64,000 bases of DNA from Pagrus major (Eukaryota; Chordata; Actinopteri; Spariformes; Sparidae): contig NC_133223.1 in NCBI RefSeq assembly GCF_040436345.1, positions 21,105,613-21,169,612 of the forward strand, read 5' to 3'. Below, one piece after another: positions 13,958 to 34,003 of the stretch. Positions within the stretch are counted from its first letter, which is position 1; each line of letters begins with the position of its first letter. The position numbers were made by a program, and so were the translations under genes. Below the pieces are notes generated by a model that was not told where the DNA came from, ran no database searches, and saw only the letters and a program-made list of their open reading frames with translations.

Positions 13958-17470
<3,513 letters not shown>

Positions 17471-19144: not shown

Positions 19145-21054
<1,910 letters not shown>

Positions 21055-25386: not shown

Positions 25387-31941
<6,555 letters not shown>

Positions 31942-32684: not shown

Positions 32685-32687
<3 letters not shown>

Positions 32688-32927
32688 TGAACAAAAATAT
32701 AAACGCAACACTTGTTTTTGCTTCCATTTTTTATATACACAAAAGATCCATTTCTCTCAAATATTGTTCACAAATCTGTCTAAATCTGTGTTAGTGAGCA
32801 CTTCTCCTTTGCTGAGATAATCCATCCCACCTAACAGGTGTGGCATATCAAGATGCTGATTAGACAGCATGAATATTGCACAGATGTGCCTTAGGCTGGC
32901 CACAATAAAAGGCCACTCTGAAATGTG
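32685..32927 (+). mobile_element. one end of a Tc1-like DNA transposon or derivative
   Basis: Begins CACTGAACAAAAATATAAAC and continues with phrases such as GGTGTGGCATATCAAGATGC and GGCCACAATAAAAGGCCACT. I recognise these from a very widespread fish repeat whose end is usually described as Tc1/mariner-like. Only about 240 bases match; the transposase and the opposite end are absent. It follows a TA run. The class assignment is from memory. Confidence 0.6.
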
Positions 32928-32932
32928 CAGTT

Positions 32933-32971
32933 TTGTGCTACTTTGGCTCTGATGGAGCCAAAGTAGCACAA
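32933..32971. repeat. near-perfect hairpin, 17-bp arms
   Basis: Arms 32933-32949 and 32955-32971 are exact reverse complements (TGTGCTACTTTGGCTC core) around a 5-base loop TGATG. It lies at the junction between the Tc1-like end and the 173-bp tandem array. Confidence 0.95.
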
Positions 32972-32972
32972 T

Positions 32973-33402
32973 GTTCATAATCACAGAGGTTATAGAGTAG
33001 TATCTGAAGTACACATAAAATAAATCATTTGATGGTCAGGCTTCATCTGTCCATTTTGAGGGGGGGATACAAATTCTGGCAGACAGGTTGACAGTCTGAA
33101 ATAATATGTTTCCCCCCATATCTTTGGCTAGAAGAGAGGAAACTTGTTCATAATCACAGCGGTTATAGAGTAGTATCTGAAGTACACATAAAATAAATCA
33201 TTTGATGGTCAGGCTTCATCTGTCCATTTTGAGGGGGGGAAACATATTATTTCAGACTGTTAACCTGTCTGCCAGAATTTGTATCCCCCCATATCTTTGG
33301 CTAGAAGAGAGGAAACTTGTTCATAATCACAGAGGTTATAGAGTAGTATCTGAAGTACACATAAAATAAATCATTCAAAGGTCAGGCTTCATCTGTCCAT
33401 TA
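32973..33402. repeat. 173-bp tandem array, 2.5 copies, with an inverted internal block
   Basis: The start word GTTCATAATCACAG recurs at 32973, 33146 and 33319, an exact 173-base period. In copy 1 the 45 bases 33067-33111 lie between a G7 run and a C6 run. In copy 2 the equivalent 45 bases, 33240-33284, are the reverse complement of copy 1's block, with a single mismatch, while both flanks keep the same orientation. Copy 3 ends before the block, near 33402. Confidence 0.95.
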
Positions 33403-34003
33403 TAGTACATTTCAAGTGAAGTAGATTTAATAGACGTAATGAAACCAATCACAGTGATCTTGATTTTGGATATCGACGTTTATTTAGTTCGACAAATTCC
33501 ACACCAGGACTTGAATGACAGCGTGTTATATGTCAATCACATGAGGAAATTAATGCCTCGGTTTTTCCGCTCAGTATGTAGTACGACGTCACGACGTACA
33601 AGAGAATAAAAGCATTTATTTTGATGGGTGGGCCATGTTGCAAAACCTCGTAGATAATTACAACAGCAGAACATTGAATTAAACAATGCAATTGTTGTTA
33701 GTTTTTAATTTACTTGGGTGAAAGCACGCGCAGCGCTGTTTCCGCCTTCGCTGAATGAATGCGCGCTCCCGCGGCCAGGGGAGACAGCTTCTGTCGGGGA
33801 CACCTACATTGGCACGACACCTGTACGGAGGCGCCACCATGCGGAGGTGGGTAGTGTTGCAGAAGCAGGGCTCACATGTTCAAGGGGGCAGAGACCAACA
33901 AGAACAGGAGGTTGCTTCAAGTCTGAGCCATGTATGTAACAGCTAACTGAAGCTAGCTTAAGTTACCTCAGGTTGTTGATAATAGTTAGCTAGCTAGCTA
34001 GCC
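33403..34003 (+). promoter_or_regulatory. upstream region of dhdh
   Basis: Contains a CRE-like GACGTCAC near 33586-33593 and, from about 33720, a CpG-richer segment that probably holds the promoter. The run GTTAGCTAGCTAGCTAGCTA precedes the start codon. No TATA box was identified. Confidence 0.4.

Follow-up and report, generated by a model that had tools for sequence, protein, structure and literature searches.

Introduction

Microinversions flanked by inverted repeats were described from the comparison of human and chimpanzee, where segments of 17-33 nt are affected and template switching or microhomology-mediated repair was proposed as their origin, the authors favouring break repair for very short or imperfect arms (PMC8755829). 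In yeast, inversion of the spacer between inverted repeats by template switching was documented (PMC8604942), and avian microinversion hotspots were reported not to be tied to stem-loops (PMC3123225), a finding which advises caution. From the satellites of Tribolium madens, sub-segments in opposite orientation within monomers were reported, for which inversion was proposed as the origin (PMC13081366). Next to these, the elements Tetris (PMC4079207) and Galileo (PMC3573991, PMC4168063) possess long inverted arms with direct tandem units of approximately 140-220 bp, which are variable in copy number, and many of their copies are devoid of a transposase. Ginger1 elements possess TGTNR ends and a transposase resembling Gypsy integrases (H2C2 finger, DDE core, GPY/F), and the duplications reported for them are CCGG (75%) or CCGT/ACGG (24%), CCTG not being among those given in the parts of the report drawn on here (PMC2836005).

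The locus described here lies in a 64-kb stretch of the Pagrus major genome (hereafter the window), in which a 45-bp block stands in opposite orientations in two adjacent copies of a 173-bp tandem repeat. It resembles the human-chimpanzee microinversions in its precise flip, in edges located at short inverted repeats and in a cleanly copied segment, but departs from that set in the greater length of the segment, in arms made of homopolymer runs and in a flip that resides in a repeat unit copied to many loci (PMC8755829). With the yeast system it shares the flipping of a spacer between inverted-repeat arms, an event which in yeast can recur and reverse; however, the yeast spacers comprise a few bases between arms of more than 9 bp, whereas here 45 bp are enclosed by arms of 6-7 bp (PMC8604942). 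The architecture of long inverted arms with direct tandem units is that of Tetris and Galileo, yet ends and target site differ, and an orientation-flipped sub-block was not found described for these elements in the parts of the reports drawn on here (PMC4079207, PMC3573991, PMC4168063). In the T. madens satellites the inverted segments are, unlike the block, about 300 bp long and of satellite scale, and ectopic recombination was proposed for them (PMC13081366). The first-pass annotation of this DNA considered precise small inversions inside a tandem array to be rarely described, which is consistent with a limited literature search; microinversions between inverted repeats as such are well described (PMC8755829). 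Microinversions are hence no novelty; what is new is a cassette that occurs in both orientations throughout the arms of an element family. While a microinversion is as a rule encountered once at a given locus, a single 45-bp segment is here found both ways round in dozens of near-identical units of one genome.

An inverted block between tandem units

Tandem Repeats Finder reports an array at 32972-33401 which consists of 2.5 copies of a 173-bp unit, i.e., copy 1 (32972-33144), copy 2 (33145-33317) and a partial third copy of 84 bp (33318-33401). The tandem copies had been recognised before, their true phase being one base earlier than was then noted. Each unit is built from an A segment (84 bp), TTGAG with a G run, the 45-bp block, a C run and an R segment (27 bp); the features are compiled in Table 1. 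Comparison of the two blocks within the window gave 44/45 matches in inverted and 29/45 in direct alignment, and outside the block units 1 and 2 are alike at 127 of 128 positions, with a single difference, so the annotated 45-bp inversion between adjacent copies is real. Likewise, the description of the block as bounded by G7 and C6, forming a short inverted repeat, is exact for both copies, in which the runs directly abut the block edges. The segment is thus a reverse complement within unchanged flanks, and the inner edges of the inverted repeat coincide with the edges of the inversion, as in microinversions. A repeat search of the window returned inverted arms of 57 nt, runs included, which are 98% complementary, and the pattern of at least six G, 15-90 bases and at least six C occurs within the 64 kb in these two units only.

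The block itself is a quasi-palindrome: aligned with its own reverse complement, it agrees at 28 of 45 positions, as compared to 12.4 (sd 4.1) for shuffled sequences, 0.055% of 20000 shuffles scoring as high. Tandem Repeats Finder therefore still scores 92% matches for the copies, but the block's own palindromy is insufficient to account for an inverted match of 44/45. A single-strand hairpin is predicted for runs plus block in both orientations, at -12.6 kcal/mol (71 nt, z -2.4) and -13.7 kcal/mol (81 nt, z -3.3).

Table 1. Features of the array and of the adjoining element end, in window coordinates
Feature	Positions	Strand
A segment, unit 1 (84 bp); element copy of the window cut off on the left here	32972-33055	+
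G7 run, left arm of short inverted repeat, unit 1	33060-33066	+
45-bp block, orientation called +, core variant GAC; identical block in L020	33067-33111	+
C6 run, right arm of inverted repeat, unit 1	33112-33117	+
R segment, unit 1 (27 bp)	33118-33144	+
A segment, unit 2; one difference from unit 1	33145-33228	+
G7 run, unit 2	33233-33239	+
45-bp block, opposite orientation, core variant AAC	33240-33284	-
C6 run, unit 2	33285-33290	+
R segment, unit 2 (27 bp)	33291-33317	+
A segment, partial unit 3; three-change cluster TGAT to CAAA at unit positions 59-62	33318-33401	+
Terminal domain of foldback element, ends ...GGCACGACA; inverted pair around arrays in other loci	33402-33819	+
CCTG adjoining the element end; CCGG in most other copies	33820-33823	.

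Distribution and orientation of the unit in the genome

Searching the source genome (786 Mb, 25 contigs) with the 173-bp unit, as had been proposed in the first-pass annotation for finding further copies and their orientations, gave at least 96 matches. These fall into at least 31 places, the window included, and the other 30 were fetched; loci with the unit or the terminal domain that were fetched from this same P. major genome bear L-numbers. Fifty-five blocks with at least 31 aligned bases were scored, of which 32 lie in a whole setting of A, block and R (complete units), the other 23 being truncated on one side or placed in an unusual context. Among the complete units 17 are oriented like the first block of the window (+) and 15 the opposite way (-), the window contributing one of each. 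The A-side + junction pattern had 17 matches in the whole genome, its reversed control none, and within the window and the fetched loci 17 matches to the + and 12 to the - junction pattern were obtained. An artefact of assembly or library is scarcely credible as the source of the two orientations: hairpins and short tandem arrays are at times misassembled, but the complete units stem from 17 places and differ in their letters, and six loci, including the window, hold both orientations. Scanning the window against Rfam gave 0 matches, and so did searching viral contigs with the A segment and with the block.

Outside the window, an exact copy of its - 45-mer is present at four places. In L013, L015 and L017 it belongs to a complete unit, and in L019 just a few bases are left on its A side; the + 45-mer has an exact copy at one place (L020). 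The core of the block exists in three variants which are unevenly distributed over the orientations: in complete units GAC was found 15 times as + and never as -, AAC never as + and 11 times as -, and GTT twice as + and four times as -, all four - units being located in one array (L010). The GAC/AAC difference between the window's two blocks is thereby the usual difference between + and - blocks of the family. When cut units are counted as well, GTTGACAGTC (GAC) is found in 22 + and 3 - blocks, GTTAACAGTC (AAC) in 2 + and 12 - blocks and GTTGTTAGTC (GTT) in 5 of each, counts which include one mislabel, as one of the three GAC - blocks, L010:2648, was scored - but is really + (its left flank is a cut R segment). 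The two AAC + blocks are that of L023, which has an R segment on either side and no defined orientation, and L028:2231, the left part of which is damaged. GAC in - and AAC in + orientation among the cut units would add extra flips, which however rest on single sites.

Since the window's - block is found unchanged at four other places, the flip is older than the dispersal of the repeat, and since both orientations and identical blocks occur on other chromosomes, the inversion of the window was inherited from the element family. The flipped block is, on the evidence of the sequences, to be regarded as an old inversion carried by a scattered element family and not as a recent local accident. The first-pass annotation had taken the low divergence of the two copies (1/128 in the flanks, 1/45 in the block) as a sign of a recent flip and considered a local event, for which a repeat family already holding both orientations had been named as a refutation; such a family was found. 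A recent inversion in place, during or after duplication of the unit, is very unlikely and largely refuted by the identical blocks elsewhere (three of the four - blocks in complete units). Also against it are the single block difference, which separates nearly all + from - blocks family-wide, and flanks that are as alike between loci as within the array, window unit 1 being 100% identical to an L014 unit over 111 columns.

Age and number of flips

On a tree built from the blocks only, orientation needs two changes, as compared to a mean of 9.3 after shuffling, with none of 500 shuffles as low, while on a tree of the A and R flanks, which took the 29 of the 32 complete units with enough flank, it needs eight changes versus a shuffled mean of 9.5. 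The trees rest on few sites, no inner branch being starred in the block, flank or terminal-domain tree, and units of one array are not independent, so that unit-level statistics overstate independence and the Fisher values obtained for the block variants are too small. The flank and terminal-domain trees, which were tried for dating and polarising the flip, carried no orientation signal. As the starred branches of the block tree force only one change, a single origin of the flip may remain compatible with it. Orientation is hence tied to the letters of the block itself and for the most part independent of A and R, a pattern indicating that few flips were followed by exchange or conversion among the units. 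This independence is incomplete, as one R-side variant, in which CAGTA replaces CATA next to the C run, accompanies the - orientation (0 +, 7 -).

Within arrays the block order +,-,+ is common to L009, L011 and L013, and the order -,+ inward from the terminal domain to the window and L015. Of 12 pairs of neighbouring complete units, 9 have their blocks in opposite orientations where chance would give 6.1, which is suggestive only (p 0.08). Fully complementary block ends (ATACA/TGTAT) are found in 7 of the 55 blocks, four in L010 and one each in L011 and L019 (all -), the seventh being a + block of L028 which adjoins an AT repeat; 5 of the 15 complete - units carry them (four in L010, one in L011).

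Given these data, it is quite possible, though short of probable, that one or two old flips were followed by gene conversion or unequal exchange which moved blocks between units, with no further inversion. That orientation follows the block variants and is unclustered on the A and R flanks, that three loci share the alternating order and that neighbouring units tend to be opposite all agree with this, but the presence of GTT in both orientations among complete units demands a second flip or an inverted conversion tract. This explanation differs from the one preferred below only in the number of flips. Alternatively, the block might be a hotspot that is still flipping in living animals, so that the orientation of each copy would be polymorphic in the population. 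All three core variants occur in both orientations once cut units are counted, orientation is unclustered on the flank tree, and the fully complementary ends also fit. The hotspot is nevertheless unlikely: the exceptions discussed above comprise a mislabel, a block devoid of orientation and a damaged one, the block tree needs just two changes, the remaining mixtures could come from exchange of blocks between units, and the strict association of GAC with + and of AAC with - in complete units indicates that flips are rare relative to copying. Somewhat less remote, but still doubtful, is the broader idea of a naturally replicated, recurrently invertible cassette which underwent several independent flips at its homopolymer inverted repeats and may continue to do so. 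If true, this would provide dozens of near-identical test sites and thereby an in-vivo microinversion assay in a vertebrate.

The carrier element and its ends

One arm of the carrier element is present in the window (32972-33819), its left part missing, followed by CCTG. The terminal domain, which measures approximately 420 bp, stands on both sides and in opposite orientation, partly as fragments, in L012, L014, L016, L019, L020 and L034, and in L012, L014, L016 and L020 the layout was seen to be terminal domain, units, centre, inverted units and inverted terminal domain, the units being arrayed inside the terminal domains. The long inverted arms and the tandem 173-bp units within them are both features of foldback elements, and on these sequence features the element is here called foldback-type with Ginger1-type ends; no earlier description of such a family was found in a limited literature search. 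Four two-ended copies, recognised by their end pattern, are 1550, 1197, 996 and 628 bp long and are thus too short for a transposase. Searching the genome with the terminal domain gave 40 matches, and the family is low-copy. L040-L044, which were found by the terminal domain, have no match to A, block or R. The array illustrates how foldback arms come to be remodelled in small modules.

The same host flanks, oppositely oriented, surround the copies in L012 and L016; the element was hence copied inside a larger repeat or segment, and these two copies are not independent. Another tandem repeat of about 164 bp lies beside element copies, with frames in L025, L030, L035 and L044, and L022 has a stretch in common with them, so the family may carry or attract more than one array. 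L022, L025, L030 and L035 had been considered as holders of the autonomous copy on account of the sequence they share beside the element, and were rejected as the frames in the three examined proved to be this tandem repeat.

The element ends typically read TGTCG...CGACA, with single-letter variants at some, and conform to TGTNR. As to the next four bases, CCGG follows 18, CCTG six and TCGG one of the 25 distinct ends; this list comprises 27 rows, two of which repeat the same place, and the end in the window and the second L014 end, both with CCTG, lie outside it. The TGTCG ends and the CCGG on both sides of L016, L020 and L034, which is compatible with a 4-bp duplication, resemble Ginger1 (PMC2836005), though, CCGG being palindromic, a duplication and an inverted end are indistinguishable. 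In L014, CCTG is read outward at both ends and is not a direct repeat, and no duplication longer than 4 bp was seen in the four two-ended copies. Unlike Ginger1, for which ends of about 40-270 bp were published, the inverted ends comprise approximately 420 bp plus arrays, and CCTG follows a quarter of them (PMC2836005). Also unlike Ginger1, no transposase is tied to the family save a relic beside one related copy (L039). There, an integrase zinc-finger (H2C2) relic (E 4.5e-14) is located between an array and a terminal domain of 74% identity; the DDE core (E 0.013) and an SH3 match (0.0017) are both below the cut-off, and an LGPY string lies in an open frame. This integrase-like relic may instead stem from a Gypsy retrotransposon, and comparing an L039 frame with solved structures gave nothing useful. 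One frame was scanned in each of L045 and L046; the former had no domain match, and the latter holds a host gene domain (LAP1_C). The element was not filed as Ginger1, since its inverted ends exceed the published lengths and no transposase can be linked to it securely.

Proposed mechanism of the flip

Taking structure and distribution together, it is probable that the array belongs to the arm of a low-copy foldback element with Ginger1-type ends, whose block was flipped at its G/C runs in a progenitor and spread by transposition and exchange. In this progenitor, DNA synthesis would have switched strand within the inverted repeat formed by the G and C runs, the block would have been copied from the opposite strand, and synthesis would then have switched back. 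Alternatively, a break inside the block may have been repaired through the same G/C runs, which would yield an identical product. The flip probably occurred at least twice, and transposition, array expansion and exchange between units would then have spread both forms. This account assigns the flip no function.

The likeliest mechanism is template switching or break repair, acting at the G/C runs; as both give the same products they are inseparable here. Of the original proposal of a flip between the G/C ends, the precise edges and a template switch at the runs as a likely cause are retained, while its being recent and local to the array is not. The G and C runs are the sole sequence common to both block edges. 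Blocks between two R segments were found at 3 of the 55 blocks (L014, L023, L029); as an in-place flip takes two switches and this arrangement one, both fit a single process in which synthesis slips from the G run to the complementary strand. The ATACA/TGTAT ends in - units are as expected from one arm being copied onto the other, and such ends are possibly a mark of arm homogenisation. Against template switching it is to be held that arms of 6-7 bp with a spacer of 45 nt are at its weak end. As the sequence variants allow flips to be counted, template switching versus break repair is testable by counting.

An enzymatic inversion of the block, by a recombinase or by the transposase of the element acting on the G and C runs, is highly improbable. 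In its favour are the precision of the flip and the integrase-like relic close to a related copy (L039), but there is no recombinase-like site, the edges being homopolymer runs of varying length (G 4 to 25 and C 4 to 10 over the 32 complete units, mostly 6-7 G and 5-7 C), and bending so short a duplex into a loop is physically unlikely, an argument which was made for segments under 33 bp (PMC8755829).

Neighbouring sequences

Partial unit 3 differs from units 1 and 2 by three changes within four bases (TGAT at 33030-33033 in unit 1, CAAA at 33376-33379). Both variants occur in other loci: of the complete units, 24 could be read at this point, 16 having TGAT and 8 CAAA, and 8 could not. The cluster in unit 3 might have arisen as a further small templated change. 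Immediately ahead of the array, at 32933-32971, lie the two perfect 17-bp arms of an inverted repeat around a 5-base loop; this repeat sits at the end of a stretch (approximately 32687-32932) which looks like another dispersed fish repeat. Three alpha-tubulin-like gene copies are located in the window (13958-14983, 19145-20137 and 31051-31941), two of which were scanned and gave Pfam tubulin matches, the third being assigned from its resemblance in sequence. About 1 kb separates this third copy from the array downstream.
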